Source: Acetobacteraceae bacterium
Lineage (GTDB): Bacteria > Pseudomonadota > Alphaproteobacteria > Acetobacterales > Acetobacteraceae
NCBI GenBank assembly: GCA_003164135.1
Contig: PLSD01000066.1
Location: 1 to 64,000 of the forward strand
Reading direction: 5' to 3'
DNA: 64,000 nucleotides
In this document: piece after piece, positions 7,183 to 46,599 of the stretch
Numbering within the stretch: position 1 is the first letter of the stretch
How the letters are laid out: each line of letters starts with the position of its first letter
Notes under the pieces: generated by a model
The model's database searches: none
What the model saw: the letters and a program-made list of their open reading frames with translations, nothing else
What the model was told of the DNA's origin: nothing
Translations under genes and position numbers: made by a program

Positions 7183-8457
7183 ATGACCGTTATTCGCAAA
7201 GTAGGCATGGCAGCCCACCGTAAGATTGATCCCGCATTGGATGACGGTGGTGGACCAGGTTATAACGTCAAAGCCGAGAAGGAACTGGTCGGCCGCGCGC
7301 GGGAACTGCAGCCGCTACTGCTGAAATATGGTCCGCAGGGTGACAAGGACCGCCGCCTGCCAAATGAAGTGTTTGACGCACTGACCGACGCCGGGTTCTG
7401 GGCAATGGCCGCGCCGCGCCGGTGGGGCGGTTTGGGCACCAGCGCCCGGGCCATGTCGCTCGTCGGCGCGGAACTCGCCAAAGGCGACGGTTCGGTTGGC
7501 TGGGTTTACACCGTGTTGCACGGTAGCACCTGGGTCGCCAGCCTGGGGCCGGACGCTCTGCAAGAGGCGATTTTTGGAGAAGAGGGCGTCGATCATCCGG
7601 TGATCTGCGCCGTCGCCAACCCGCCAGGCACCATAGATGAAGTTGACGGCGGCTATCTCGTCAACGGCCGTTGGCCCTATGCCTCCGGCTCGGCGCATGC
7701 GCGCTGGGCGCAGTTGGGCGTGAACATCCGCAACAAGGACGGCTCTTTGGACCATGGCGGCTTCGCCTATGTCCGCATCAAAGACATCACGATCGAAGAT
7801 ACCTGGCATATGATGGGTATGCGCGGCACCGCCTCGAACACCATCGTCGCCAAGGGCGTCTTCATTCCCTACGCGCAGTTCTACCATGTTGCCAAGCTTG
7901 GCCTCGGTGGTCACACGCCCGGCAAGCGCCATGTCGGTGAACCGTCCGACTATTGGCCGTTCATGCCCTTCCTGCGCGCCACCGCGCATGCGGTTGTCGC
8001 CGGTGCGGCACTGGAGATTCAGGCCCGCGTGACCGAGGCAGCGCAACGCCGGCCGATTGTTTATACCACCTATACCAAACAGTCGGAGGCTGTAATGGCG
8101 CAGGGTCAACTCGGCGAGGCTGCTGCGCGTATTTCCGCGGCTGTGGCAGTAACGCTGAAGAATTGCGATTTGATCGATCAGGTCGGCCTGACCCGCGTGC
8201 CGCTCACGCCGCAACAGCGTGCCCTAAGCAAAGGCGAGGGCTCGCTTGCCGTCGACCTGCTCTCGCAGGCCATCGACCAGTTGATGTTCCTGGCTGGATC
8301 AAGCGCTTTCTCAACATCAAACCCCATCGAGCGTCTGTATCGCGACGCGGTCTTCGGCATGCGCCACACCGCGAACCTGCCGTATGTCGGTTACGAAATT
8401 TTTGGAAAATCACTGCTCGGTATCGAGCCGAACATCTCCCACCCTGACTTTATTTAA
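7183..8457 (+). CDS. Acyl-CoA-dehydrogenase-fold flavin monooxygenase (HsaA/HpaH-C2-like)
   Basis: A 424-residue protein with the acyl-CoA dehydrogenase fold but of the group D flavin monooxygenase type, oxygenase components that use FMNH2 supplied by a separate reductase to hydroxylate phenols. Typical segments are RLPNEVFDALTDAGFWAMAAP, RWGGLGTSARAMSLVGAELA, the GRWPYASGSAHARWAQLGV region, and the late GSSAFSTSNPIERLYRDAVF. HsaA in steroid degradation shares this arrangement and makes the catechol cleaved by HsaC. Adjacent placement after the extradiol dioxygenase fits that pairing. Its reductase could be the flavin reductase at 954-1463. The start at 7183 follows GGAGAGAGACAAC. Actual substrate is unproven. 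Confidence 0.85.
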   Translation: MTVIRKVGMAAHRKIDPALDDGGGPGYNVKAEKELVGRARELQPLLLKYGPQGDKDRRLPNEVFDALTDAGFWAMAAPRRWGGLGTSARAMSLVGAELAKGDGSVGWVYTVLHGSTWVASLGPDALQEAIFGEEGVDHPVICAVANPPGTIDEVDGGYLVNGRWPYASGSAHARWAQLGVNIRNKDGSLDHGGFAYVRIKDITIEDTWHMMGMRGTASNTIVAKGVFIPYAQFYHVAKLGLGGHTPGKRHVGEPSDYWPFMPFLRATAHAVVAGAALEIQARVTEAAQRRPIVYTTYTKQSEAVMAQGQLGEAAARISAAVAVTLKNCDLIDQVGLTRVPLTPQQRALSKGEGSLAVDLLSQAIDQLMFLAGSSAFSTSNPIERLYRDAVFGMRHTANLPYVGYEIFGKSLLGIEPNISHPDFI

Positions 8458-8485
8458 CCAAAAACCAAACTCACAGGAGCCGTCC

Positions 8486-9865
8486 ATGCTTGACAATGTT
8501 CAAAAGGGTATCGCCCAAGACCCCGTTTCCCGCTACATCGATCTCGAAAACCGTGAAGTATCTCTTGCCGTGCTGCACGATGAGGCTCTCTACGAAGAAG
8601 AGCTGAAAAACATTTTTGCGAAGTCGTGGCTGATGCTCGGTCACGATACCGAAATCCCCAATGCCAACGACTATGTCGTGCGCTTCATGGGCGAGGATCA
8701 GGTGATCGTGGCGCGCAGCCCCGATGGCAAGGTAAGCGTCTCGCTCAACGTTTGTCCGCATCGTGGCATGCATGTCTGCATTTCAGATTCCGGAAATACG
8801 CGCGCACATAAATGCATTTATCACGGCTGGGCCTTCCGCCCGGATGGCAGCTTCATCGGTGCACCTGTTGAGCGCGAGCAGATGCACGGCAAGATCAAAA
8901 CCAAAAAGGAACTGGGGCTCAAGCAGGCGCGCGTTCATTTATATGGCGGATTGATCTTCGCGAGCTTCGACCACAATGGTCCGTCGTTCGAGGAATCCCT
9001 GGGCGAGATGAAGTTCTATTACGACATGCTATTCCAGCGCACCGACAATGGGCTGGAAGTGCTCGGACCACCGCAGCGCCTGACGATTGATGCCAACTGG
9101 AAAACCGCTGGCGAGCAATCCGCGAGCGACGGTTATCACATGCTCACGTTGCATCAATCGCTGCTGGAACGCGGCGTTATGGGTGGCGAGCCCGACTCCC
9201 AGCACGAATCCGCACCGGCGATGTATGGCATTAACGTCGCCGGCAATGGCCACACGCTGCGCTGCATCCCCGCCGACACCACATTCACGATGATGGCCGG
9301 CTCCACCACCGAGGACATGACCGATGCGCAGCGCCTGGAGTTGATGCCGCCTCCGGGTATTACCAAGGAACTGCTGCCGCAGCTTGCCAAGCATATGAGC
9401 CCGGAGCAGATGCACGTGCTGGCGAAGGCGCCGCCAGTGGTGGGTAATATTTTCCCGAACGTGGGCATCCTGTTCATCTACGTGCCGCTGCGCGACGGTT
9501 CGCTCGGCTCGGGATTGGTGCTGCACACAATGAATCCGCGTGGCCCGCATCACTTTGAGTGGTCCACCTGGTTCTTTGCGGAAAAAGACACTCCTGAAAA
9601 CGTGAAAGCGATGATGCGCGCGGCTTGCGCACAAGGCGTTGGCACGTCGGGCGTGATCGAGCAGGACGATAGCGACACCTGGCCGCATATGTCCGAATCC
9701 GCGCGCGGCGTGGTGGGGCGGACCCAGACCATGAAGTATCAGGCGATCCTCGGCCAGACCCGCGCTGCCGATTGGCCCGATAAAGCCGAAGTCTATGAAG
9801 GCTTCAGCAAGGACGACTGCCAGTGGAACTGGTGGAAGAACTATCACGCGATCATGACCCGCTGA
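8486..9865 (+). CDS. Rieske ring-hydroxylating dioxygenase, alpha subunit
   Basis: A 459-residue large subunit of a three-component aromatic dioxygenase. The Rieske [2Fe-2S] ligands are C90/H92 (VCPHRG) and C110/H113 (CIYHGW). The mononuclear iron site has D215, H218 and H223 in SDGYHMLTLHQS after a typical NWKTAGEQ segment, and an EQDD motif at 392-395 provides the carboxylate. The start at ATG 8486 follows CAGGAG; an upstream in-frame start at 8384 would overlap the previous gene by 74 bases. The beta subunit follows 28 bases on. Both redox centres look intact, in contrast to the pair at 36155-38168. It would add O2 to a ring to give a cis-dihydrodiol; ferredoxin and reductase are not adjacent. 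Confidence 0.93.
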   Translation: MLDNVQKGIAQDPVSRYIDLENREVSLAVLHDEALYEEELKNIFAKSWLMLGHDTEIPNANDYVVRFMGEDQVIVARSPDGKVSVSLNVCPHRGMHVCISDSGNTRAHKCIYHGWAFRPDGSFIGAPVEREQMHGKIKTKKELGLKQARVHLYGGLIFASFDHNGPSFEESLGEMKFYYDMLFQRTDNGLEVLGPPQRLTIDANWKTAGEQSASDGYHMLTLHQSLLERGVMGGEPDSQHESAPAMYGINVAGNGHTLRCIPADTTFTMMAGSTTEDMTDAQRLELMPPPGITKELLPQLAKHMSPEQMHVLAKAPPVVGNIFPNVGILFIYVPLRDGSLGSGLVLHTMNPRGPHHFEWSTWFFAEKDTPENVKAMMRAACAQGVGTSGVIEQDDSDTWPHMSESARGVVGRTQTMKYQAILGQTRAADWPDKAEVYEGFSKDDCQWNWWKNYHAIMTR

Positions 9866-9893
9866 ACCTCCCGTAATCTGAAAGGTTTTAAAC

Positions 9894-10445
9894 ATGTCCA
9901 CTATTGAGAAGACCGCGAAGAGCGAACGGGCCGAGGTCATCTTCGGCTCCCCCATCTACAATCAAGTCGCGGCATTCCTGATCCGCGAAGCGCATTTGCT
10001 GGATCATCGTTTGCTGAACGACTGGGCCAAGACTCTGGCCGAGGACCTGGTGTATTTTGTGCCGGTCCGCGTGACCCGGCGCGTGCAGGATTTCAACCAT
10101 GAGTTCGCCATCACCGGGCATTTTGACGACGATTATGCCTCGATGCTGGTGCGCGTTGACCGCCTGGTGAACACCACCAGCGCGTGGTCGGAAGACCCGG
10201 CCTCGCGCGTACGCCGTTTCGTCTCCAACATCATGGTGTACGAAACCGACACGCCTGATGAGTATGAAGTTGTAAGCTATCTGCTGCTCACGCGTAACCG
10301 TGCCGACGCCCGAGATTACAAGCACCTGAGCGCCGAGCGCCACGACCGTCTACGCTGGGTTGGCGACCGCTTCCTGCTTACCAACCGCAAGGTTCTGCTC
10401 GACCAGGTCGTGCTGGGCATGCCGAATCTTGCAATCTTCCTGTAA
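9894..10445 (+). CDS. Rieske ring-hydroxylating dioxygenase, beta subunit
   Basis: A 183-residue small subunit of the NTF2/SnoaL fold, which caps alpha3beta3 dioxygenases and has no redox centre. Recognisable segments are the N-terminal helix ending FLIREAHLLDHRLLNDWAKTL, the DLVYFVPVRVTR strand and the C-terminal RWVGDRFLLTNRKVLLDQ. The length matches the family. It follows the alpha subunit by 28 bases with an AAAGG site. A strong hairpin lies immediately after its stop codon, before the second P450. Confidence 0.92.
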   Translation: MSTIEKTAKSERAEVIFGSPIYNQVAAFLIREAHLLDHRLLNDWAKTLAEDLVYFVPVRVTRRVQDFNHEFAITGHFDDDYASMLVRVDRLVNTTSAWSEDPASRVRRFVSNIMVYETDTPDEYEVVSYLLLTRNRADARDYKHLSAERHDRLRWVGDRFLLTNRKVLLDQVVLGMPNLAIFL

Positions 10446-31926: not shown

Positions 31927-32241
31927 TTAAAGAGCCGTGACCTCGACAACCAGGCCGTCGAGTTCCTCGGTCACCTTGACCTGACACGACAGGCGCAGCT
32001 GCGCATATTTCGCGTCGTCGTGGTCGAGCATGGAGTCTTCCAGCGCTTGGCGAGGCGGCAAGCGGGAGACCCAGTCCGGCGCCACATACACAAGGCAGGT
32101 CGCGCAGGCCGCGGCGCCACCGCACTCTGCGGGAACACCGGCAACGTTGTTGTTTACTGCCCCTTGCATGACAGAGTTCCCGACGGGAACCTCGAAAGTT
32201 TCGGAACTGCCACTGGGCTGGACGTAGGTGATCTTCGGCAT
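31927..32241 (-). CDS. [2Fe-2S] ferredoxin (adrenodoxin/ThcC type)
   Basis: A 104-residue plant/adrenodoxin-type ferredoxin. Cluster ligands are C40, C46, C49 and C86 (ECGGAAACATCLVY and LSCQVKV), the C-x5-C-x2-C spacing of the P450-associated branch. It is the only electron carrier of this sort in the window and no ferredoxin reductase accompanies it. It could therefore serve the two P450s at 4684 and 10533, the Rieske dioxygenase at 8486, or the split Rieske pair at 36155, with a reductase encoded elsewhere. It sits 23 bases after the kinase gene in the leftward operon. Confidence 0.92.
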   Translation of the reverse strand: MPKITYVQPSGSSETFEVPVGNSVMQGAVNNNVAGVPAECGGAAACATCLVYVAPDWVSRLPPRQALEDSMLDHDDAKYAQLRLSCQVKVTEELDGLVVEVTAL

Positions 32242-35399: not shown

Positions 35400-36080
35400 C
35401 TAAGGCAGCAGTCCGGCGAGAATGAACTCCGCGAAAATGTCGATCTGGCCGCCCAATTTGCCCGGACTGATTTCGTCGGCGTCGCCCATGCGGTCGAGCA
35501 GTGGGCCGGAGGCAAAATAGAATCCGACACCTTCCACCAGGACGGCCATGAGGGCGCTGGCTGAAATATCACGCACCGGCCGTTGGCTGGCTATGCTGGC
35601 GAGCAGCGCGCTGAGCTTTTCCTTGAAAGGCATGGCGTAAGCGTTCGCCAGATAGTCGAGGCGCCAAGTCGCGCGCCGGCCCTCCGCGTGCATGAGGCCC
35701 ACGAAATCGGGATTTTCGGCGGTCCAGCGGCAGAGGCGGTGGATCAGTTCCGCCAGCCGCGTTTTATCATCCAGGCCGGGTTCGTCGAACGCTGCCATCA
35801 CCGGCGGCGCGACGCGGGCGATGTGGGCATCCACGGCCCGGCGCCACAAATCCGCTTTTGAGCCAAACCGGACATTGATAAGGTTGTGACTGACACCAAG
35901 TTCCTTAGCGAGTTCACGTAATGTCGTGCCCTCATAGCCACGCTGGGCAAAGGTGTTAAAGGCGAGGTCCAGAACCATATCCTCGCGCACCACCCCAGCC
36001 GCGTCGTTCGACGGCCGGCCCCTGGGCCGTGAAATTCTTGCCGTGGCAGGCGCCGGATCATCTAGGTCGGTATTTTGCAT
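35400..36080 (-). CDS. TetR-family transcriptional regulator
   Basis: A 226-residue TetR-type repressor. After a basic, proline-rich leader (RISRPRGRPSND), the HTH reads LDLAFNTFAQRGYEGTTLRE then LAKELGVSHNLINVRFGSK (about residues 36-74), and SKADLWRRAVDAH follows as usual. The C-terminal part is helical. It is divergent from the first Rieske-like gene, with 74 bases between starts, and a perfect palindrome at 36107-36123 lies in that gap. It most likely represses itself and the 36155-39271 genes. The effector is unknown. Confidence 0.88.
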   Translation of the reverse strand: MQNTDLDDPAPATARISRPRGRPSNDAAGVVREDMVLDLAFNTFAQRGYEGTTLRELAKELGVSHNLINVRFGSKADLWRRAVDAHIARVAPPVMAAFDEPGLDDKTRLAELIHRLCRWTAENPDFVGLMHAEGRRATWRLDYLANAYAMPFKEKLSALLASIASQRPVRDISASALMAVLVEGVGFYFASGPLLDRMGDADEISPGKLGGQIDIFAEFILAGLLP

Positions 36081-36154: not shown

Positions 36155-37099
36155 ATGCCAAATCAAAAGCAAAAAGCCCACTCGAACTCAGCCTCGTGGT
36201 GGACGGTGGCACGTAGCGAAGAAGTTACCAGTAAAAAGCCGTTGTCATCGGACATCGGCAATCAGGAGCTTGTGCTCTGGCGTGATGCCGCCGGTATTGC
36301 CCGCGCCATGGAAGACCGTTGCCCGCATCGCCGCGCACCGCTGTCGCGCGGTTGCGTGCGGGAAAACGGGCTGATTCAGTGCGGCTACCACGGCTGGAGC
36401 TATGATGGCGAGACCGGCCGCCTCCGGGAAATTCCCAACATGAAAAGCGAACAGCGGTTCCCCCCCCTGTATAAGGCACAAAGCTTTGCCGTCGCGGAAA
36501 GCGGCGGGTTGGTGCGGGTTTGCCTCATCCCCGGCGCCGTGGCGCCAGTCACGAACGCAGTGGCCCTACCGCTGCACGGGACCGCGCATGTGGCACTCGC
36601 GCACGAGCATTATCTCTCTGCATTTTTTGACGATCCAGGCATGTTGTTCGGCATGAGCGGGGTAGAATTCACGCCTTATCTCGCGTCCGAATTAAAGGTA
36701 GAAGCCGGCCGGCTGGTCATGGAGCGCAACTGCCAATGGCGCGGGCTGCATTGGCCGTCCTCGTTCAGCTCCGAGTTCCCGATCACCCTGCTATCCAAAA
36801 CCGACCCGGTAACGGGTGAGACGGAGCTCACCCTGCGTGACGACGCCTTACACGAGCTGCTCACCGCGGTGATCGCCCCGGTTCCAGCCGCTCGTGGCAT
36901 TACCGCCATACGCTGGCGGGCACGGCTTGCCAGTAGGCTCGACGGTCTGCGCGCGAAGCGGCTTTTAATCGGCGCGCCCTTCCGTGTGTTCGAGACCGTC
37001 GATGCCACTGCGCTGAGAAGACTGACGCCCTCCGCCTCGGTGCAAGGGCAGGATCTGCGCGCGGCGATCATTCAAACCAGCCAGGCAAGCGCTGCCTGA
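36155..37099 (+). CDS. Rieske-oxygenase-like protein with cluster motif but no recognisable iron triad
   Basis: A 314-residue protein starting with a Rieske domain: C56/H58 in RCPHRRAPLSRG and C76/H79 in QCGYHGWSYDGETG, followed by REIP, the standard phthalate-type order. In the catalytic domain, where oxygenases have (E)N-x2-D-x2-H-x4-H, this protein reads HEHYLSAFFDDPGMLFGMSG, and no D-x2-H-x4-H is found elsewhere. It should therefore carry electrons but not activate O2 itself. GGAGAG lies upstream of ATG 36155. The next gene, 19 bases on, has the reverse defect. The pair probably forms one mixed oxygenase. Alternatively it is a decayed enzyme, but the intact frame and strict Rieske motif argue against decay. 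Confidence 0.8.
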   Translation: MPNQKQKAHSNSASWWTVARSEEVTSKKPLSSDIGNQELVLWRDAAGIARAMEDRCPHRRAPLSRGCVRENGLIQCGYHGWSYDGETGRLREIPNMKSEQRFPPLYKAQSFAVAESGGLVRVCLIPGAVAPVTNAVALPLHGTAHVALAHEHYLSAFFDDPGMLFGMSGVEFTPYLASELKVEAGRLVMERNCQWRGLHWPSSFSSEFPITLLSKTDPVTGETELTLRDDALHELLTAVIAPVPAARGITAIRWRARLASRLDGLRAKRLLIGAPFRVFETVDATALRRLTPSASVQGQDLRAAIIQTSQASAA

Positions 37100-37118
37100 C
37101 GCAACGGGAGACATCACC

Positions 37119-38168
37119 ATGCTCGATAATATAGCTGGGCCAGACGACAGCGCATTCAATAATCCGGCAGCGTTGAACGATATCAACAACTGGGTGCCGC
37201 ATGATATCGTGATGCGCGACGCGTGGTTCCCACTGGCTCATTCGGCCGCGGTCGGCAAGAAGCCCGTCCGGCGCTCGGTATATTCGGCGCCGTATTTCCT
37301 CTGGCGGGAAGACGGCAACGCCGTTGCCGCTTCATTCCTGCCGGGAGTCAGCTCGCCGCCCGAAACCGGCCTGACCGACGCCGCCGGGCGCTACCCGGTT
37401 ATGGAGCACTACGGCTACGTCTGGTGCTGGTACGGCAATCCGCTTGCGGCAGACCCACTGCATCTGCCGAGCATCCCCTACCTGCCGCCCAACGGCGGCT
37501 TGCCCGGTTACCTGACCGGCACGGTACGGTTCGATTGCGCGGCGCCGGTCTCTCTTGAAAATCTGATCGACCTGACGCATGCGGATTTCCTGCACGCGAA
37601 CGTGGTCGGCGATGAGAAGTCCGAAAGCGAGACGGTTGAGGTGTTTTCGGACTCCGAGACCGTGACGATGGTGCGGACCTGCACCGGCAAGTCGGTGGCC
37701 CCGATTATGAAGTTCTTCAGCGGCATCCGTCAGCCGACCCAGCATGTTCGTCAGGTGATCCGCATCTACCTGCGCAGCCACGCGGCCATTGCCTATGGCA
37801 GGTTCACGCCGGGCGATGACGTGCCGTTATTCCACCCATGTGTGCCGGAAACGCGCGACCGCACGCGGTTGGACTATACCATGAATACATCGAACGCCGG
37901 CCTGTTATTCCGCCATGTCATGCCGAAAGCCAGCTATCTCGTTTCGCGGCAGGACAGCTCCATGACCTCGCCGCAAAGCCCGCGTTACATGCACGAATCC
38001 AAACGCCGCGACCTGCATTCGAAGTTCGACGTGGCCGGCCAGCGTTACCGTCTGCTGATGAAAAATCTCGTCGAGCGCCAGGCAGCGGGGGATTTTGCCT
38101 ATCGGGACAACGTCAGCGCCGACTGCAGTGATCTGATTGGCCTGCGCAAGGAACTTTTTCGCTACTAA
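37119..38168 (+). CDS. Rieske-oxygenase-like catalytic protein with iron triad but no Rieske cluster ligands
   Basis: A 349-residue protein related to phthalate-type oxygenase alpha subunits. The mononuclear iron motif is complete: N148, D151, H154 and H159 in ENLIDLTHADFLHA, with D279 in VSRQDSS as candidate third ligand. The N-terminal region keeps the Rieske-domain frame (RDAWFPLAHSAAVGKKPVRR, and YPVMEHYGYVWCWYGNP where the domain ends), but the stretch between them is shortened and has no C-x-H or C-x2-H. It could not receive electrons through its own Rieske centre. GGGAG lies upstream of ATG 37119, and the Rieske-bearing protein is 19 bases upstream, so electrons would come from that partner. 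The LLM enzyme follows 53 bases on. Confidence 0.8.
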   Translation: MLDNIAGPDDSAFNNPAALNDINNWVPHDIVMRDAWFPLAHSAAVGKKPVRRSVYSAPYFLWREDGNAVAASFLPGVSSPPETGLTDAAGRYPVMEHYGYVWCWYGNPLAADPLHLPSIPYLPPNGGLPGYLTGTVRFDCAAPVSLENLIDLTHADFLHANVVGDEKSESETVEVFSDSETVTMVRTCTGKSVAPIMKFFSGIRQPTQHVRQVIRIYLRSHAAIAYGRFTPGDDVPLFHPCVPETRDRTRLDYTMNTSNAGLLFRHVMPKASYLVSRQDSSMTSPQSPRYMHESKRRDLHSKFDVAGQRYRLLMKNLVERQAAGDFAYRDNVSADCSDLIGLRKELFRY

Positions 38169-38221: not shown

Positions 38222-39271
38222 ATGACTAAACTGAACGCGGTCGGTGGTGAACGCCGGTTTTGGGGAACGATGCCGGTGCTGCCTGGGCCAGCACTTACGG
38301 CGAACGTGCAGCACATGGAGGCCGTCGGTTATGAGGGCGTGTTCGTGCTGCAAATCTATGGGCCGCCGTTCGTGCCGCTCGCCGCCGCCTCCACGGTGAC
38401 AACCAAGCTGAAGCTGGCAACCGGCATCGCCATCGCCGGCACCCGCAGCCCGCTGGAAACCGCACACGCAGCAATCGACCTCGACCGCATCAGCGAGGGC
38501 CGTTTTATCCTCGGCCTCGGCAGCAGCATTCCCTCCTGCACCACCGGCATGTACGGCATGCCGCCGGTCAAGCCGTTGGGATTTCTGCGTGAGACGGTGG
38601 ACGCGGTGCGCTACCTCATTGCCAACTCGCACAAGGGCCTGAACCCGTATAACGGCACTTATTATAAGGCGGATTTCGAGGAAATGATGCTGACCGCGCC
38701 GCCGCTGCGCGAGCGCATTCCCATATGGATTGCCGCATTGCAGGAAAAAATGACCGACCTCGCCATCGAGATCGGCGACGGCCTGCTGGTGCACGCACTG
38801 TGGTCAGCCCGCTACACGGCAGACGTCCAGGCGCCGGTCATCGCCGCCGCAATCGCCAAGCATGGGCGCAAGCGCGAGGATATCGAAATCAACGCCTGGC
38901 CGTGGATTGCCATCAACGACGACAAGCAGCAGGCGATCAATGATGCGCGCGCCACGGTGGCGGCCTATTCGGGCTATAAGCAATACGAGCCGTTTTTCGA
39001 GAAACAGGGCTTTGGCGACCAGGCCCGCGCGTGTCAGCTGGCGCTAGGACAGCACGGCGAGGTCTCCTCGGTCGTGCATAACATCCCAGACGAGATGGTG
39101 CTGGCGTTCTGCGCGTGCGGCAGCGTCGCTGATGTGCTGGAGCAGATCGAACCCTATTGGAGCGTGGTCGATTCGCTGACACTGATGACGCCGTATCGCG
39201 ACCTTTCCATGGAAAAACTCTACTTCTACCATAATGGTCTGTCCCAGCTGGTGGCCGCCGCCAAAGCCTGA
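38222..39271 (+). CDS. LLM-class (luciferase-like) flavin or F420 oxidoreductase
   Basis: A 349-residue luciferase-like enzyme: AVGYEGVFVLQIYGPPFVPL, LKLATGIAIAGTRSPLETA, LDRISEGRFILGLGSSIPS and, late, IGDGLLVHALWSARY. It is a paralogue of the enzyme at 34292-35311. GAGGGTGAAAA lies upstream of ATG 38222. It follows the split Rieske pair in the same direction and is probably co-regulated by the TetR protein at 35400. It might act on the product of the oxygenase; whether it could also pass electrons to it is speculation. A 470-base gap separates it from the envelope cassette. Confidence 0.83.
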   Translation: MTKLNAVGGERRFWGTMPVLPGPALTANVQHMEAVGYEGVFVLQIYGPPFVPLAAASTVTTKLKLATGIAIAGTRSPLETAHAAIDLDRISEGRFILGLGSSIPSCTTGMYGMPPVKPLGFLRETVDAVRYLIANSHKGLNPYNGTYYKADFEEMMLTAPPLRERIPIWIAALQEKMTDLAIEIGDGLLVHALWSARYTADVQAPVIAAAIAKHGRKREDIEINAWPWIAINDDKQQAINDARATVAAYSGYKQYEPFFEKQGFGDQARACQLALGQHGEVSSVVHNIPDEMVLAFCACGSVADVLEQIEPYWSVVDSLTLMTPYRDLSMEKLYFYHNGLSQLVAAAKA

Positions 39272-39742
39272 ACCGCCCGGCATCCGCCGTACCCTGGGAG
39301 CGTAGCGGCATGACTTGGCGCCGCCCCGCTTCCCGGCAGGGTTTGGGATTGAGCAAGGAAACTCGGGTCGCGGCGGGCCCGCTTGTATCCAGTTACCGCA
39401 ACGCTACCACATCCTGGTCCGCGCGCTCCTTTCGCGGTTCCCAAGGGAGCGGCCCATCTGATCTGAAGCAAAAAAAGCATCAGTCGGCTGGTTGACACTC
39501 CCTACCTTCCTGCCATCGCCCTACCTGAAGACAGGTTTGCAAAACTTGTCGCTTGCCCAGAACGTGGTCATAAGGAAATGCACTCAAGTTACCGCGGTAG
39601 TCGTGGATTAGTAAGCGTGATTACAAAAACAGGCATGAAGCCACAGCCCGGCGGAAAGAGCATTTTCTTTGGTGGGTTAAAAATGAAAAGGCTTGACGCC
39701 TAAGTTTCGGGTGTGGAGCAATTCTGGGAAAGGGAGGCAAAA
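39272..39742 (+). promoter_or_regulatory. Intergenic region before the envelope cassette
   Basis: About 470 bases without a convincing gene lie between the LLM enzyme and the DUF1302 porin. It should contain the promoter of the porin operon. A TTGACA occurs at 39492-39497 but no matching -10 element was found at standard spacing. No riboswitch or strong palindrome was recognised. Confidence 0.3.
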
Positions 39743-41470
39743 ATGACTGAAAGATATAGTCGTCGGAAGTTAAATCTACTTGGTTCAACGGTTTTTGGGA
39801 AAACCGGTGGCCGTGGGCAATTTGGCGTTGGTTTGATGCTTGCGGGAACTATGGGCGCGCTGCTGGCAGCCGCCCCGCATCAGGCGCACGCGTTCAACCT
39901 TTATAATGGTGTGAATTACGGCAATAATCTTGAAATTGACCTGAGCACGACGCTTTCATACACGCCGATCTGGCGCGTACAGAATCCGTCGCAGAGACTG
40001 ATCGGGTATGCAAATGCCAACGGTAGTGAAGGCGATCTCGCTTTCCAGCATGGTCTGGTTTCAAATCAATTTGAAATTCTGCCGGTTTTGGACGTCAAGG
40101 ACGGCAACTACGGAGCCCATTTCAGCGCTGAGGGATATCTCAATACGAGCTATCTCACCACGAATCAGAACGATCAGCCCCAAACGCTCAACCCAATCTC
40201 GCTGGGCAAGAGCACGGATTTCACCAGCGCGACGCGCAACGTTGATGGCTTGAACGCGCGTGTTCTCGATGCGTTTGTCTACGGCACGGAACGCTTTGGT
40301 GCAGGCGATCAACAGTCGTTCACGCTGAAAGTCGGCCGCCAGACATTGCTATGGGGCCAGTCTCTCTTCTTGAGCAATAACGGCATCGCCGCCGGCATGG
40401 CGCCGATTGATATCATTACGGCTAACGACAACCCCAACGCGCAGACCCAGCAGATCATCGAGCCGGTTGGCCAGGTGGTCGCGACCTACCAGCCGAACCC
40501 GATCGTAACTCTGCAGGCCTATTACCAGTTCGAGTGGGCGCACGATTATTTCCAGGGCGTCGGCGCTTATTTCAGTACCGCGGACATTCTGGACAAAGGC
40601 GGCCAAAGCTTGCTGCTGCCGGATCCGTATTACACGCCCGGTGGGCCGTATCCGCTCTTTGCGCAGGCTCTGCGTACGAAGGATCTGTCCCCCGAGCATC
40701 AGAATGGCCAGTTCGGTGCATCTCTGCAGTTGACCCTGGGTAATTACGACGTTGGCTTCTTCGGCCTGCGCTACGACTCCAAGGCGCCCACCGTCTATCT
40801 GCACTTCCCGACACCCTACTCCGTGACCTATAATCTTGTTTATCCGCGCGATATCTGGATGGAAGGTGCGTCTGTATCGACGACAGTCGGACCTGCCAAC
40901 GTCGCGGCCGAGACTTCGTTCCGCCAGCACATGAACCTGACGACGGGTGCGAATCCTGCAGGGCCTGCGAACAATGCGAACTCCAATCCGGCCTATCCGA
41001 CGGGCGATACATGGGCGGCACAGGCATCAGCCCTCTACGTGTCGCCGCCAATTCCGTTTGATCCGGGCGGAGTCTCGGTGGACGGCGAAGTTGGTATGAA
41101 CCACGTGCTGAAGGTGACGGCCAATAATGCCGCCATCGATTCATACGCCAACCATTCGGTGACACGTTCCTCCACCGCAGCGCAGCTCCAGGTGGTCGTG
41201 ACGCCTAGCTATTATGACGTTATTCCCAACCTGCAGCTTACCTTCCCAATCGGCCTGGGGTACGATTTCTACGGCCGTTCGATGGTTGATCCCACCGAAA
41301 ACAACGGTACTGGCTCGGTGAACGTTGGCGTTACCGCAACCTATCGGGTGACCTGGATCGCCTCGGTTACCTATAACGACTACATCGGAGCAGCCAACCC
41401 ACTCATCCAAGGTGAGCCTTCGACGGCAGATCGGAGCTATGTCATGCTCAACTTCCAGCATACCTTCTAA
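39743..41470 (+). CDS. DUF1302-family outer-membrane protein
   Basis: A 575-residue predicted beta-barrel. The N terminus is a long signal sequence: a basic stretch (TERYSRRK), a hydrophobic core (FGVGLMLAGTMGALLAAAP) and a cleavage-type HQAHAFN. The mature part alternates short beta segments rich in Tyr, Gln and Asn (QSFTLKVGRQTLLWGQSLFL is a typical DUF1302 strand pair) and ends LNFQHTF with the terminal Phe of outer-membrane barrels. The start at ATG 39743 follows GGGAGG; an in-frame start 30 bases upstream would include that site. DUF1302 next to DUF1329, YCF48-like and RND genes is a recurrent cassette in degradation of steroids and other hydrophobic compounds, thought to aid passage across the envelope. 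Confidence 0.85.
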   Translation: MTERYSRRKLNLLGSTVFGKTGGRGQFGVGLMLAGTMGALLAAAPHQAHAFNLYNGVNYGNNLEIDLSTTLSYTPIWRVQNPSQRLIGYANANGSEGDLAFQHGLVSNQFEILPVLDVKDGNYGAHFSAEGYLNTSYLTTNQNDQPQTLNPISLGKSTDFTSATRNVDGLNARVLDAFVYGTERFGAGDQQSFTLKVGRQTLLWGQSLFLSNNGIAAGMAPIDIITANDNPNAQTQQIIEPVGQVVATYQPNPIVTLQAYYQFEWAHDYFQGVGAYFSTADILDKGGQSLLLPDPYYTPGGPYPLFAQALRTKDLSPEHQNGQFGASLQLTLGNYDVGFFGLRYDSKAPTVYLHFPTPYSVTYNLVYPRDIWMEGASVSTTVGPANVAAETSFRQHMNLTTGANPAGPANNANSNPAYPTGDTWAAQASALYVSPPIPFDPGGVSVDGEVGMNHVLKVTANNAAIDSYANHSVTRSSTAAQLQVVVTPSYYDVIPNLQLTFPIGLGYDFYGRSMVDPTENNGTGSVNVGVTATYRVTWIASVTYNDYIGAANPLIQGEPSTADRSYVMLNFQHTF

Positions 41471-41490
41471 GTCACGGGAGAGAGATAAAA

Positions 41491-42885
41491 ATGAAAAGAC
41501 GTACATTTAGTTTGCTCGCCGGCACCAGCATGCTGGCGTTGGCGGGAGCGAAGAAGAACGCATTTGCACAATCGGCATCTGATTTTGCAACGCTCAGCAC
41601 AACAACATTGACACCGTTTGGTTCTGAGCGCGCCGGCAATGCGGCGGGAACCATCCCTGCGTGGACCGGTGGCTTCACCACCGTTCCGGCTGATTGGGAT
41701 GCCGCCACCCAGATGACACCGGATTTTTGGGCGGACGAAAGCCCGCTCTACACGGTTGATGCGTCCAACATGGCGCAATATGCCAGCCTTCTGACCGACG
41801 GCGTTAAGCATATGATCCAGAACCAAGGGTTTTCGCTACAAGTCTATGCCACGCACCGTACCCAGGCCTCACCGCAATGGGTGTATGATAATATCGTTAA
41901 AAACTCTACGAACGCGAAGCTGAATGAAGCAGACGGCCGGACTGGCTTTACCGGTGCCTTCGGCGGCGTCCCGTTCCCGGTGCCGGATACCAGTAACCCA
42001 CTTTCCGCCGGTGCGCAGGTCATCTGGAATCACCGCTGCCGCTGGATGGGCGTAGCCAACACTGAGGTTGGTTGCTCCATGGTTTCCAACGGCGGCCACA
42101 TTGTTTTTGCCGGCGGGGGTAAAACGGAAAATGCTTTCCCGTTCTACGATCCCAATGGTAGCGTTGCGACCTATAAAGGCTACGTGTACCGCAACCATGA
42201 GGTGCTGTTTGGCCCGGGCACTTTCGTTGGCGAGCAGATTACCGACCAGTTCGCGACCAATTCCTTACAAAACCCTGATATTTTGTGGGAGCTTTTGCCC
42301 GGTCAGGGGCGCGTTCGTAAGGCGCCGGAACTCAAATACGATACACCGTCGGGATTCACGGACGGTATCGCCAACTTTGATGAATACTACTGTTTCGATG
42401 GCGCGCTGGACCGTTATGACTGGAAGCTTCTCGGCAAACAGGAAATGCTGGTCCCCTACAACAACAACAAACTGCGCCGTACGCCGGTTGATGTCGCCCA
42501 TCTTCCCAAGTTCGTGAATCCCGACGCCGTGCGGTGGGAGTTGCATCGGGTCTGGGTTGTTGATGCCACCCTGCATGCCGGTGAGCGCCATGTAATTCCT
42601 CATCGCCGCTTTTTTGTGGACGAAGACACCTGGACGATTACCATTGCCGATGAATGGGATGCCAACGGGGATCTCGAAAAATGCGGCATGAACTACAATA
42701 TCGCCTTCCCGAATCTTCCGGGTACGATTTTGTTGAACACGGTTTGCTATAATCTGCAAACGGGTGACTACGTGACCATCTCTGGTCCATGGGGTAACTC
42801 GCCGTACAACGCGCCCATAACCTTCGGGCCAATCCCGCCTAGCGACCTTGAGCCGCAAGCCATGGCGGCGGCAGCGTCGTACTAA
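41491..42885 (+). CDS. DUF1329-family exported protein
   Basis: A 464-residue protein of the DUF1329 family (LolA/LolB-like fold by family knowledge). The N terminus KRRTFSLLAGTSMLALAG with a later AFAQS looks like a Tat-type or Sec signal with twin arginines. Family hallmarks include GNAAGTIPAWTGG near the start, the repeated N-P and W-patterns, KLLGKQEMLVPYNNNK, HVIPHRRFFVDEDTW and DEWDANGDL. GGGAGAGAG precedes ATG 41491, 20 bases after the porin. DUF1302 and DUF1329 proteins nearly always occur together, suggesting a periplasmic partner that carries a lipophilic substrate to or from the porin. A perfect terminator hairpin follows. Confidence 0.85.
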   Translation: MKRRTFSLLAGTSMLALAGAKKNAFAQSASDFATLSTTTLTPFGSERAGNAAGTIPAWTGGFTTVPADWDAATQMTPDFWADESPLYTVDASNMAQYASLLTDGVKHMIQNQGFSLQVYATHRTQASPQWVYDNIVKNSTNAKLNEADGRTGFTGAFGGVPFPVPDTSNPLSAGAQVIWNHRCRWMGVANTEVGCSMVSNGGHIVFAGGGKTENAFPFYDPNGSVATYKGYVYRNHEVLFGPGTFVGEQITDQFATNSLQNPDILWELLPGQGRVRKAPELKYDTPSGFTDGIANFDEYYCFDGALDRYDWKLLGKQEMLVPYNNNKLRRTPVDVAHLPKFVNPDAVRWELHRVWVVDATLHAGERHVIPHRRFFVDEDTWTITIADEWDANGDLEKCGMNYNIAFPNLPGTILLNTVCYNLQTGDYVTISGPWGNSPYNAPITFGPIPPSDLEPQAMAAAASY

Positions 42886-42950
42886 GTACACGTCAAGTTA
42901 AATTTTACGTTGCTTTATAACAACGGACGAAAGTCTAAAGACGTTGACGA

Positions 42951-42983
42951 AAATTTCCCTTGGTCCTCGGCCAAGGGAAATTT
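42951..42983 (+). terminator. Rho-independent-type hairpin after DUF1329
   Basis: AAATTTCCCTTGG (42951-42963) pairs perfectly with 42971-42983 across a 7-base loop; the descending arm ends in TTT and is followed by G-TT. It lies 65 bases after the DUF1329 stop and before the YCF48-like gene start at 43012. It probably reduces transcription into the distal exporter genes relative to the porin pair. Confidence 0.75.
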
Positions 42984-43011
42984 GTTCTCAAGCCTAAGTG
43001 GAGAAACCTGC

Positions 43012-44145
43012 GTGCTCTGGCAAAAGACAATATTTGTGATTGATTGTTTGTTCGTGCCAGCGCGCAGAAACTTTGGCAAACTGCTTTTGCCCCTCCTGTT
43101 TCTGCTCACGGCCGGCCCCGGCTTGGCCGTGGCCGATACAAATTATAGCGTACTAAATGAGAATGCCATCACGGTCGCGGCTCCGAACCGTGTTCTGCTG
43201 ATCAGTATAACCCATGCAGGCAACCGGCTGGTCGCGGTGGGTGAGCATGGCGTTATTGTTTACTCCGATGACAATGGGCAAACTTGGCGCCAGGCCGTGG
43301 TGCCGGTTAGCGTCACAATTACAACCGTCGCGTTCGCAACGCCGCTACTTGGTTGGGCGGGGGCGGGCTATGGTTTGGTCCTGCGCACAACTGATGGCGG
43401 TTTGACCTGGACGAAGCAGATTATGGGCGTGGAAATCAATCAATTGATGACAGCAAACGCAGCTCAGTTTCTGGCACAGAGTCCAAACGATTCTAAAGCC
43501 CAGGTGGCCGTGCGGAGAGCCAACATTCTCATGAGTGCCGGTCCGGATAAGCCCATTCTATCGCTTGTGGCGATAAGTCCGCAGGTTGCGATGGCATTTG
43601 GGGCATACCGCCTGGCCATTGCGACGAACGATGGCGGCAAGACCTGGACCGATCTAAGTCTTCAGATCGCGGATCCCATCAGCCATAATCTGTATGCTAC
43701 GGCCTGGGTTGGCACATCCCTCTACATAGCCGGTGAGGCTGGTACGGTCCTGCGTTCGGATGACCAAGGAAAAATATTTTCCCTGCTGCCAGCGCCGTCG
43801 GAGAACACGCTTTTTGGCATATTCGACGCGGGCAACAACATTATCATGGCGTACGGTGTCGCTGGTGCGGCGTTCGAGAGTACCAATCAGGGGCAAAGCT
43901 GGAGCCAGGTAAACGTTCCCGGTCAAGGTAACTTAACCGCCGGGATGACACTTAAATCTGGGACCATTCTTCTTGCCAACGAAGCCGGTATTGTCTTGCT
44001 TAGTTCAGATCATGGCGCGAATTTTCACATGATCCCCGGAAATCAGGGCATGGGAATTTTCGGAGTGGCACAAGCGGCGAATGGTAACGTCGTGCTAGTT
44101 GGCACCGGCGGTGTACGCGTGGTGCCGCTGTCTTCCTTGAACTAG
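43012..44145 (+). CDS. YCF48/BNR-repeat exported protein
   Basis: A 377-residue beta-propeller-type protein with repeated S-x-D-x-G-x-T-W Asp-box motifs: YSDDNGQTWRQAV, RTTDGGLTWTKQI, ATNDGGKTWTDLS, FESTNQGQSWSQV and a weaker LSSDHGANF. It begins with a hydrophobic signal segment (LLLPLLFLLTAGPGLAVADT). Such YCF48-like proteins accompany DUF1329 and RND genes in the envelope cassette; their precise job is unknown. The start was set at GTG 43012 because GTGGAGAAA lies before it; an in-frame ATG at 42910 would place a terminator hairpin inside the gene and is rejected. The RND gene follows 42 bases downstream. Confidence 0.8.
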   Translation: MLWQKTIFVIDCLFVPARRNFGKLLLPLLFLLTAGPGLAVADTNYSVLNENAITVAAPNRVLLISITHAGNRLVAVGEHGVIVYSDDNGQTWRQAVVPVSVTITTVAFATPLLGWAGAGYGLVLRTTDGGLTWTKQIMGVEINQLMTANAAQFLAQSPNDSKAQVAVRRANILMSAGPDKPILSLVAISPQVAMAFGAYRLAIATNDGGKTWTDLSLQIADPISHNLYATAWVGTSLYIAGEAGTVLRSDDQGKIFSLLPAPSENTLFGIFDAGNNIIMAYGVAGAAFESTNQGQSWSQVNVPGQGNLTAGMTLKSGTILLANEAGIVLLSSDHGANFHMIPGNQGMGIFGVAQAANGNVVLVGTGGVRVVPLSSLN

Positions 44146-44187
44146 CGCGTTTGACGTTTAAAGAGCCGTAACTCAAAGGATCGAACG

Positions 44188-46599
44188 GTGCTTGATTACA
44201 AGAAGAGCAGCAATATGAAAGTTCACGCTAAGATTGAGAGCTTCGATAAGAAGAGCGGCTCTTGGTTTGAAGGGATTTTATTCAATAACAGGATTGTGTT
44301 CCTGTCGATATGTATTGCTATAACAATATTTTTGGGCATAAAATCTTTGGACGTGCGGATCAACGCCGATTTCAACGATACGATTCCAACACAGCAATCC
44401 TTCATCGTAAACTACCTGAAGCATTATGCCGATCTGCAATCTCAGGCGAACGCGGTGGAAATTTCAGTTACCGCCAAGGCCGGAACGATCATTGATCAGA
44501 ATTATCTGGATACGCTAAAAGGGATCAGTGATAAGATCTATCTGCTTCCGGGTGTTGATCGTCCCTTCATGACATCACTATGGACGCCAAACACCCGGTG
44601 GATTGCGGTTACGGCTGATGGCCTGGATAGCGGTCCGGTGATCGGCGACACGTACGACGCATCCCCCAAGCAGCTTGAAATTGTGCGGCAGAATATCCTC
44701 AAGACCGGCGAAGTCGGCAAGCTCGTGTCTGACGATTTCAAATCAAGCATGATCTATGTGCCGTTGCTTGAAATAAATAATATGACTGGCAAACCGCTTG
44801 ACTACGGCGACCTCTCGCGGCGGCTGAATGTGATCAGAGACCAGTACGATTCTCAGGGCGTGACATTGCATATCATCGGCTTCACGATGGTGGTGGGTGA
44901 CATGATCAATGGAATCAACGAAGTACTGATGTTCTTCGGCGTTTCTATTTTGATCGCTACGGCGTTTTTGTATTGGTACACGCGCTGTGTCCGCAGTACC
45001 TTGCTGGTGGTCTTCGCCTCTCTGACGGCCGTGGTTTGGCAGATGGGCATTTTGTCCCTTCTCGGTTACGATCTGACGCCATATTCAGTTCTGGTGCCAT
45101 TTCTCGTTTTTGCGATTGGCATGAGCCATGGCGCCCAAAAAATGAACGGCGTCATGCAGGATATTGGCCGCGGAACGCATCCACTTGTCGCGGCACGCTA
45201 CACGTTTCGGCGCTTGTTCCTTGCAGGTTTTGCGGCACTTGTTTGCGATGTCACAAGCTTTGCGGTGCTGATGACGATCCAGATCGTCGCCATCCGGCAG
45301 TTGGCGACCATCGCCAGCATAGGCGTTGGCATCTTGGTCATTACGAATCTGATGATGCTGCCCACCATGCTAAGCTACACTGGGGTAGACAAAAAGGCGG
45401 CCTTGCGGTCCTTGGCGAGCACGCCGGAACCGGGTGCGCCGCGTTCCAATAACCTTCTGTGGAATTTTTTAGACCTGTTTACAAGGCGCAACTATGCGAT
45501 CGGCGCCATCGTATTCATGCTCGCTTTGGGGGCTTTTGGCTGGTACGTTGGCCGTGGGGTGCAGGTAGGGGACCTGGATAATGGTGCCCCGGAATTACGG
45601 CAAAACTCGCAATACAACCAAGATAACGCATTCATCGTGAAGAATTTCACGACGGGAAGTGATACGTTTATCGTTCTGACAGACACCCCGGAACAGGGCT
45701 GCTTGAATTACGATGCGATGATCGCTTTGGGTGAGTTGCAGTGGCAACTCGATCAGCTTCCGGTGGTGCAATCGACAAATTCGCTCGCATCATTTGCCGA
45801 ATACGGTTCGATGCTAATGACGGAAAATGCGCCCAAATGGTTTGGTGTTGAGCCCAATCAGCCGATGCTCGATAGTCTCAATGGCGGTTTGCCAGCGAAC
45901 CTGAGTAATTTCACCTGCTCCTTTGCTCCTCTGTATATTTCCTTACGCGATCACAAAGCGAAAACGCTTGATACAGTTGTTAACGTGGTTCAGAAATTCA
46001 TCGACAATCCGAAGAACCATAGTCCTAATTTCACGATGTCCCTCGCCGGCGGTAATGCTGGTATCGCGGCGGCGACCAATATCGTCATCAAGGAAGCCAA
46101 CCAGAGCATGCTGTTCTTGGTCTACTTCGTGGTCATCCTCTTCTGCCTGATCACGTTCCGTTCCTGGCGCGCCGTGATCTGCGCAGTGGTGCCGCTAACC
46201 ATTACCTCGTTGCTGGCGCAGGCACTAATGGTCTGGCTCGGCATCGGCATCAAGGTTGCCACTCTGCCGGTGGTGGCGCTGGGTGTCGGTATCGGCGTTG
46301 ATTATGCCTTGTATGTCCTCAGCATCATGCTGAAAAACCTGCGCGAAGGGGCGACATTATCCGATGCCTATCACCAGACACTGCTGTTCACCGGCCGCGT
46401 GGTGATCCTTACCGGCATTACACTGGCCACCGGCGTTGTCACCTGGATTTTTGCACCGATCAAATTCCAGGCCGACATGGGCTTGCTTCTCTCGTTCATG
46501 TTCTTGTGGAACATGTTCGGCGCCATGGTGCTGTTGCCATCACTGGCCTATTTCTTGCTGCCGCCACGTTTGTTCCGGAAAAAGATAACATCAGGCTAA
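44188..46599 (+). CDS. RND/MMPL-superfamily transporter
   Basis: An 803-residue inner-membrane protein with the MmpL/HAE3 plan: a first transmembrane helix (IVFLSICIAITIFLGIKSL), a large periplasmic loop, a helix bundle (MFFGVSILIATAFLYW, LLVVFASLTAVVWQMGILSLL, LVPFLVFAIGMSHGAQKM), a second single helix (YAIGAIVFMLALGAFGWYVG), a second loop and a second bundle (LFLVYFVVILFCLITF onward, with VVALGVGIGVDYALYVLSIM containing the G-x-x-x-D-Y motif for proton relay). The start is GTG 44188 with AAAGGA upstream; ATG 44215 is an alternative. Together with DUF1302/1329 and YCF48 it forms the envelope cassette. It may move the hydrophobic growth substrate or a product; direction is not deducible. Confidence 0.88.
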   Translation: MLDYKKSSNMKVHAKIESFDKKSGSWFEGILFNNRIVFLSICIAITIFLGIKSLDVRINADFNDTIPTQQSFIVNYLKHYADLQSQANAVEISVTAKAGTIIDQNYLDTLKGISDKIYLLPGVDRPFMTSLWTPNTRWIAVTADGLDSGPVIGDTYDASPKQLEIVRQNILKTGEVGKLVSDDFKSSMIYVPLLEINNMTGKPLDYGDLSRRLNVIRDQYDSQGVTLHIIGFTMVVGDMINGINEVLMFFGVSILIATAFLYWYTRCVRSTLLVVFASLTAVVWQMGILSLLGYDLTPYSVLVPFLVFAIGMSHGAQKMNGVMQDIGRGTHPLVAARYTFRRLFLAGFAALVCDVTSFAVLMTIQIVAIRQLATIASIGVGILVITNLMMLPTMLSYTGVDKKAALRSLASTPEPGAPRSNNLLWNFLDLFTRRNYAIGAIVFMLALGAFGWYVGRGVQVGDLDNGAPELRQNSQYNQDNAFIVKNFTTGSDTFIVLTDTPEQGCLNYDAMIALGELQWQLDQLPVVQSTNSLASFAEYGSMLMTENAPKWFGVEPNQPMLDSLNGGLPANLSNFTCSFAPLYISLRDHKAKTLDTVVNVVQKFIDNPKNHSPNFTMSLAGGNAGIAAATNIVIKEANQSMLFLVYFVVILFCLITFRSWRAVICAVVPLTITSLLAQALMVWLGIGIKVATLPVVALGVGIGVDYALYVLSIMLKNLREGATLSDAYHQTLLFTGRVVILTGITLATGVVTWIFAPIKFQADMGLLLSFMFLWNMFGAMVLLPSLAYFLLPPRLFRKKITSG

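Follow-up and report, generated by a model that had tools for sequence, protein, structure and literature searches.

The stretch of DNA analysed here, which we call the window, comprises the first 64,000 nucleotides of contig PLSD01000066.1 from an Acetobacteraceae bacterium. Two of its genes, encoding the proteins that we call A and B, follow one another on the same strand with a gap of 19 bases between them (Table 1). The initial annotation of this DNA gave open reading frames and translations for both that match the window sequence, and it described the genes as adjacent and in frame. The adjacency stands but the shared frame does not: the two starts lie 964 bases apart and, since this is no multiple of three, A and B are read in different frames and are two separate genes rather than a single interrupted one. 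A purine-rich stretch can be read upstream of each start. In eight of the 82 A-B pairs with a measured gap the genes overlap by four bases when the starts are set by script (L041, L108, L109, L110, L112, L113, L118 and L119; L numbers denote loci of our comparison set).

Table 1. Genes and ligand positions at the A-B locus and elsewhere in the window.
Feature	Position	Strand	Remark
Ring-hydroxylating oxygenase alpha/beta pair	8384-10445		HcaE/HcaF-like, below equivalog cut-offs
[2Fe-2S] ferredoxin-like gene	31927..32241	-	104 aa; below family cut-offs
TetR-type regulator gene, divergent from A	35400..36080	-	Homologue in the same place in 35/84 loci, window included
Protein A gene	36155..37099	+	314 aa; Rieske-bearing subunit; catalytic-type domain without both iron-binding His
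Rieske [2Fe-2S] ligands of A	36320..36391	+	Kept in 83/83 homologues
A C56 codon	36320-36322	+
A H58 codon	36326-36328	+
A C76 codon	36380-36382	+
A H79 codon	36389-36391	+
A D159, bridging-Asp position	36629..36631	+	Invariant, 83/83
A D283, third-ligand position	37001..37003	+	Asp in 78/83
Protein B gene	37119..38168	+	349 aa; iron-bearing catalytic subunit; remnant Rieske-type domain without cluster loops
B bridging Asp and first two iron ligands	37569..37595	+	D151 (37569-37571), H154 (37578-37580), H159 (37593-37595)
B D279, third iron ligand	37953..37955	+	Column is Asp in 37/37 complete oxygenases
F420-type LLM oxidoreductase gene, directly 3' of B	38222..39271	+	TIGR03617-like, below cut-off

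The translation of A contains the Rieske ligands C56, H58, C76 and H79, and Pfam assigns it a Rieske domain (8e-24, residues 14-102) together with a weaker Rieske_2 match that lies below its cut-off; these Rieske matches are all that Pfam finds in A, with neither a catalytic-domain match nor a reductase domain. The translation of B contains the iron ligands H154, H159 and D279 and the bridging aspartate D151, and its Pfam match is to VanA_C (9.8e-34, residues 138-320), with no Rieske match in that database. Ligands were counted in 83 A and 84 B sequences, 75 of them distinct for each protein, which come from 80 loci of a genome scan, three plasmid loci and the window. The Rieske motif is present in 83 of 83 A and in 0 of 84 B, and neither C-x-H nor C-x2-H occurs in any of the 84 B, that of the window included. 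The D-x2-H-x4-H iron motif with its bridging Asp is found in all 83 full-length B. At the level of single residues, N148, D151, H154 and H159 are kept in 83/84 B (the exception is the broken gene of L104) and D279 in 84/84, although the conservation of D151 and H154 in the scan set is partly built in, since the scan pattern ENLIDLTH includes both and only 12 of the 80 scan loci also match a second pattern. The plasmid records, and nine further A-B pairs that a profile search recovered, were chosen independently of ENLIDLTH, and the ligand pattern is kept in all nine of those pairs. When B is aligned with 37 complete oxygenases it has the canonical residue at D151, H154, H159 and D279, as do 83 of 83 B in an 83-row alignment; the comparators were picked for having both motifs, so that the alignment is an independent check only at the Asp column of D279.

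Neither protein has both metal sites on one polypeptide, and only the A-B pair as a whole could qualify as a Rieske non-heme iron oxygenase alpha subunit. The initial annotation had read A as having canonical Rieske ligands and no D-x2-H-x4-H site in the catalytic half, and B as having kept D151, H154, H159 and D279 while losing both loops of the cluster; the homologues bear out both descriptions. It had also named cluster ligands in B and a complete but displaced iron triad in A as signs that would speak against it. We looked for the former and found none in 84 B, and there is no such triad in A, where no histidine of the catalytic half is conserved beyond 67 of 83 sequences. The sequences give strong support to a division of the two metal sites between two subunits that each resemble a Rieske oxygenase.

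Protein A has lost both iron-binding histidines, yet it has probably kept the two carboxylates of the old site, D159 and D283. A profile alignment with complete oxygenases puts a glycine and a gap at the two histidine positions, and beyond residue 125 the sole column of A with histidine in at least 60% of sequences is H150 (67/83). The position of A's catalytic half varies with the alignment used. D159 falls at the bridging column in the profile alignment and in 17-row alignments (17/17 rows with MAFFT); in the 83-row MAFFT alignments another stretch lies there. D283 falls at the third-ligand column in the profile alignment and in one of two 83-row alignments. A predicted helix ends at D159 in A (150-159) and at D151 in B (142-151), which favours placing D159 at the bridging column. 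Three A sequences contain D-x2-H-x4-H strings, starting at residue 142 in L048 and L062 and at 183 in L113; they are chance occurrences that other A do not share, and a displaced iron triad was rejected. Given D159, D283 and the histidine at 150, some A might conceivably still bind a metal in a non-canonical way.

AlphaFold2 was used to predict A and B as single chains. The model of A has a mean pLDDT of 90.3 and a pTM of 0.87; that of B has values of 83.2 and 0.86, with low confidence at residues 153-157 and 159-165, which adjoin the iron site in the H154-H159 loop. In a Foldseek search of the PDB the top match for both models was to chains of dicamba monooxygenase, spanning some 350 columns (the leading row has TMq 0.65 and rmsd 7.2 Å for A, and TMq 0.68 and rmsd 5.1 Å for B), and with a TM of about 0.6-0.7 and an rmsd of 5-8 Å against this enzyme, DdmC, both models have the two-domain fold of an alpha subunit. 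DdmC (3gke, 3gb4) is also the closest solved relative of both proteins by sequence, matching A at 2.9e-13 over the Rieske part and B at 4.1e-11 mainly over the catalytic part, and in the sequence alignment the segment ENLIDLTHADFLH of B aligns with DNLMDLGHAQYVH of DdmC. Profile-profile comparison with complete oxygenases covers 303 columns of A (probability 100) and 301 columns of B (probability 99.9). Judged by the predicted models, A and B each look like a whole two-domain subunit minus one metal site, and not like a detached domain. In DdmC, unlike A and B, both metal sites are present in each subunit. DdmC is given as an alpha3 enzyme in a 2025 review (PMC12445004). The top NCBIfam match for both proteins is the 4beta-methylsterol monooxygenase SdmA (NF052579), but at 58.8 bits for A and 24.3 bits for B both are far under the family cut-off of 600 bits. 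Annotation of the orthologues goes no further than Rieske (2Fe-2S) protein or Rieske domain-containing protein for A, and oxygenase or aromatic ring-hydroxylating dioxygenase subunit alpha for B.

Relatives of B were sought with a four-sequence B alignment in one genome from each of 84,980 species, and the best 80 of 94 were used. They span the alpha-, beta- and gammaproteobacteria and include Acidocella aquatica (96% identical), sphingomonads, Hirschia, Porticoccaceae, Pseudomonas, Stutzerimonas, Halopseudomonas, Paraburkholderia, Thauera, Aromatoleum, Zoogloea, Massilia and further taxa, with some metagenome-assembled genomes among them. An A gene lies directly upstream of B on the same strand in 79 of the 80 scan loci, and at the single unpaired locus, L071, the contig starts 102 bases before B. 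Among the genomes that supplied the 80 loci, at least three carry two A-B pairs (Croceicoccus hydrothermalis, L067/L073; Sphingobium fontiphilum, L075/L080; Pseudomonas fluorescens PS662, L094/L095). Profiles of both proteins were also run, at E <= 1e-40, against 198 genomes of one family, sampled separately: nine contain B, the same nine contain full-length A, adjacent to B in all of them, and the other 189 contain neither. B was found in 0 of 198 genomes of another family, and in 398 genomes taken across the phylum it was found at E <= 1e-20 only in the window's own genome. Matches to A occur in 97 of those 398; among the matches listed, only the window's own extends past position 196 of 307, the rest covering the Rieske end alone. 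In the window's own family 37 of 249 genomes match B, and among the matches listed all but the window's own gene are at most 38% identical. Thirty-one plasmid records match B. Four of them, from Novosphingobium resinovorum, Croceicoccus marinus and Massilia putida, hold orthologues with identities of 73, 67 (two records) and 47%, and the other 27 are weaker (21-39% identity among the matches listed). A match covering at least 80% of A is present in four of 497 plasmid records, the same four that have B at 46% identity or more. The initial annotation had counted it against its reading if homologues of either protein usually occurred alone; at the thresholds used they do not. Such strict joint inheritance in many bacteria makes it very probable that A and B work as one enzyme. 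At L104 (8175-11017), in a Paraburkholderia metagenome-assembled genome, A, TetR and LLM genes stand in the layout of the N. resinovorum plasmid pSA2 with equal offsets (L039 18175-21014) and B is broken in two pieces; this locus reflects a recent transfer or a binning error.

We estimated dN/dS for 17 hand-chosen A-B pairs, with A and B each split into two halves; one pair yields no defined ratio in any half, another lacks it in two halves, and in some pairs dS is saturated. Wherever it is defined it is at most 0.27 in all four halves, except for the C half of A in two pairs. That half gives 0.05-0.27 in 14 of 16 defined pairs, the exceptions being two Thauera/Aromatoleum pairs with 0.56 and 0.63 at a dS of 0.05-0.07, and the N half of B gives 0.04-0.17 in all 15 defined pairs. 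All four halves, those that lack a working metal site among them, are thus under selection. Constraint is stronger in the half that carries the metal than in the other half in 14 of 15 pairs for A (the exception is L073/L072) and in 15 of 15 for B. Across 42 non-redundant pairs mean identity is 0.60 in the Rieske half of A versus 0.44 in its C half, and 0.63 in the catalytic half of B versus 0.57 in its N half. The distance matrices of A and B correlate with r = 0.969 (0.90 and 0.91 within the two main groups), a correlation that linkage alone could produce. When 37 complete oxygenases are included in a quick tree, A forms one clade and B another, each with an SH-aLRT of 100, so the partition looks old and single. 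The branches are long, and the AU test (p = 0.338) neither shows nor rejects A and B as sister clades, which is what the initial annotation's word paralogues would mean in its strict sense.

Complementary ligands, pairing and selection on all four halves uphold the proposal, made in the initial annotation, that functions are partitioned between the two proteins. We propose, with a probability of about 0.84, that A and B are the two obligate subunits of a single Rieske non-heme iron oxygenase of the DdmC/VanA type, in which A would hold only the Rieske [2Fe-2S] cluster and B only the mononuclear iron. We infer a physical complex of the two proteins and an electron path through it that would run from a reductase to a [2Fe-2S] ferredoxin, for which the ferredoxin-like protein of the window is a candidate as donor to A, then to A's cluster at H58/H79, across the A-B interface to the bridging D151 of B, and on to the iron held by H154, H159 and D279. 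B would bind the substrate, which that iron would oxygenate after activating O2. In A as in B, the half that has no working metal site has probably been kept for contacts within the ring.

Geometry in a known enzyme suggests why a mixed assembly is to be expected. In CntA the metals are 44 Å apart within a subunit and 12.2 Å apart across the interface, and a bridging glutamate is required for the cross-subunit electron transfer (PMC7948474). By analogy, the cluster of A could serve only a neighbour's iron and the iron of B could draw only on a neighbour's cluster, so that an ordinary ring built from A alone (A3) or from B alone (B3) would be inactive. A three-membered ring cannot be made by strict alternation of A and B, and A2B and AB2 would have one productive junction each; the stoichiometries AB, A2B, AB2, ABAB and A3B3 are all possible. 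One tentative version, to which we give rather less than even odds, is a mixed ring off C3 symmetry (A2B, AB2, AB or ABAB) with a single type of productive A-to-B junction, in which D159, and in most sequences D283, of A hold the non-catalytic junction. If so, any three-membered ring would have a single active site.

The alternative that survives best, although we consider it improbable, casts A as an oversized Rieske ferredoxin, dedicated to carrying electrons, that would dock only briefly on a homo-oligomer of B, with no mixed ring. It would account for the canonical Rieske domain of A and for its matches to NCBIfam ferredoxin-subunit models, which fall far below their cut-offs (AndAb, 31.8 versus 150 bits). 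A carrier of this kind is harder to reconcile with a catalytic-type domain that has a confidently predicted fold (mean pLDDT 90.3), with the alignment of A along its length to complete oxygenases, with the low dN/dS of its C half (0.05-0.27 in 14/16 pairs), or with the separate ferredoxin-like gene that lies close to the pair in the window and at 38 of 84 loci. Still less credible is a reading in which just one of the two proteins is catalytic, the other being a pseudo-subunit, decaying or regulatory, with the missing part coming from a different Rieske oxygenase of the same cell. Seven further places in the window's genome match A's Rieske domain and might provide it, one of them the alpha/beta pair within the window, and the two carboxylates retained by A take slightly from the weight of a two-subunit oxygenase and add slightly to this one; against it, A and B occur together in 79/80 loci, the family sample has nine genomes with both and 189 with neither (E <= 1e-40), and both halves of both proteins are under selection. 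That an ordinary single gene was split by a sequencing error or a recent frameshift, for which the adjacency of the two reading frames is the sole support, is already refuted, since A and B are each a full-length two-domain homologue and the two-gene layout recurs in 79/80 loci, with both genes intact in 78 (the B of L104 is broken).

A two-subunit oxygenase formed by A and B has precedents of several kinds. Kunugi et al. in 2013 are said to have found that the chlorophyllide a oxygenase (CAO) of Micromonas has its cluster on one chain and its iron on the other. The Micromonas pusilla enzyme is described as a Rieske oxygenase in two polypeptide chains, which had been suggested to form a heterodimer and for which the authors of PMC9615114 consider an architecture like a trimer of dimers more likely. 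A and B likewise place cluster and iron on separate chains; they differ in that CAO is eukaryotic and serves chlorophyll b synthesis, whereas A and B lie in bacterial clusters of catabolic appearance and have DdmC as their best solved relative. The two-chain CAO is a closer precedent than NdmC, the example given in the initial annotation. NdmC is described as a catalytic subunit without a Rieske cluster that works with the Rieske domain of NdmD and with NdmE (PMC4408171). In this caffeine N7-demethylase a Rieske domain on another protein serves a cluster-less subunit, as A would for B, but the Rieske domain of NdmD is fused to a reductase, whereas A is free of one by Pfam and has a catalytic-type domain of its own and an oxygenase-like predicted fold; the NdmC/NdmD system also requires a GST-like protein, NdmE. 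In heterohexamers such as NdmA/NdmB each subunit type is complete. These alpha3alpha'3 oxygenases, with two kinds of alpha subunit in one assembly (PMC12445004), thus resemble A and B in having two alpha-type subunits but differ in the completeness of each. The principle of a split is already known, from Micromonas CAO and in part from NdmC/NdmD. Among the matches listed from the open-licence literature, outside which most subscription journals lie, we found no description of a bacterial pair of the A/B type, and within that literature the bacterial, widespread and strictly paired form appears to be undescribed.

In ordinary Rieske oxygenases each subunit both gives and receives electrons, and the path across the interface cannot be taken apart without upsetting both sites. 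With donor and acceptor on different proteins, the cluster and the iron of A and B could be loaded, mutated or measured singly. Structurally characterized oxygenases are described in the 2025 review as consistently C3-symmetric oligomers (PMC12445004), a rule that A and B would test because strict alternation of the two cannot close a ring of three.

The genes that surround the pair offer some indication of its setting. The TetR name was taken from annotated orthologues, with no NCBIfam match at 1e-10. The LLM oxidoreductase gene has a homologue at the corresponding position in 35 of 84 loci, the window included, and a gene similar to the window's ferredoxin lies near the pair in 38 of 84; at L077, L083, L097, L103, L110 and L113 other genes flank A and B, an SDR gene among them in some. 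The window also contains the oxygenase alpha/beta pair, two P450s, an extradiol-dioxygenase-like gene, a ketosteroid-dehydrogenase-like flavoprotein, a CoA-transferase, two acyl-CoA dehydrogenases, a thiolase, two sulfotransferases and an ecdysteroid-kinase-like gene. Homologues of the alpha gene of that oxygenase pair lie beside A-B pairs in L078, L110 and L113, and of the beta gene in L078 and L113, and the alpha/beta pair and A-B possibly belong to one pathway. These surroundings allow a weak and doubtful guess, that the genes serve the catabolism of a polycyclic terpenoid- or steroid-like compound; the diterpenoid and bile-salt literature and the neighbouring genes gave no firm answer as to the substrate. 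One pair (L099) comes from Pseudomonas vancouverensis Dha-51, which we take to be a resin-acid degrader.

Further along the window, at 39713-46599, is a row of four genes whose Massilia counterparts are annotated as DUF1302, DUF1329, YCF48-related and MMPL transporter; the third is Ycf48-like by NCBIfam, below the cut-off, and genes like the last three lie near beta-proteobacterial A-B pairs. The F420 biosynthesis genes cofC, cofH and npdG are found beside orthologous pairs (L039 24424-29048; L040 27642-33869), with cofD and cofE also beside the Croceicoccus pair, and the window's genome has a CofH match above the family cut-off in an 803-aa frame (G000:C100:18783-21032). These alphaproteobacteria may therefore make F420 for the LLM enzymes of the cluster.
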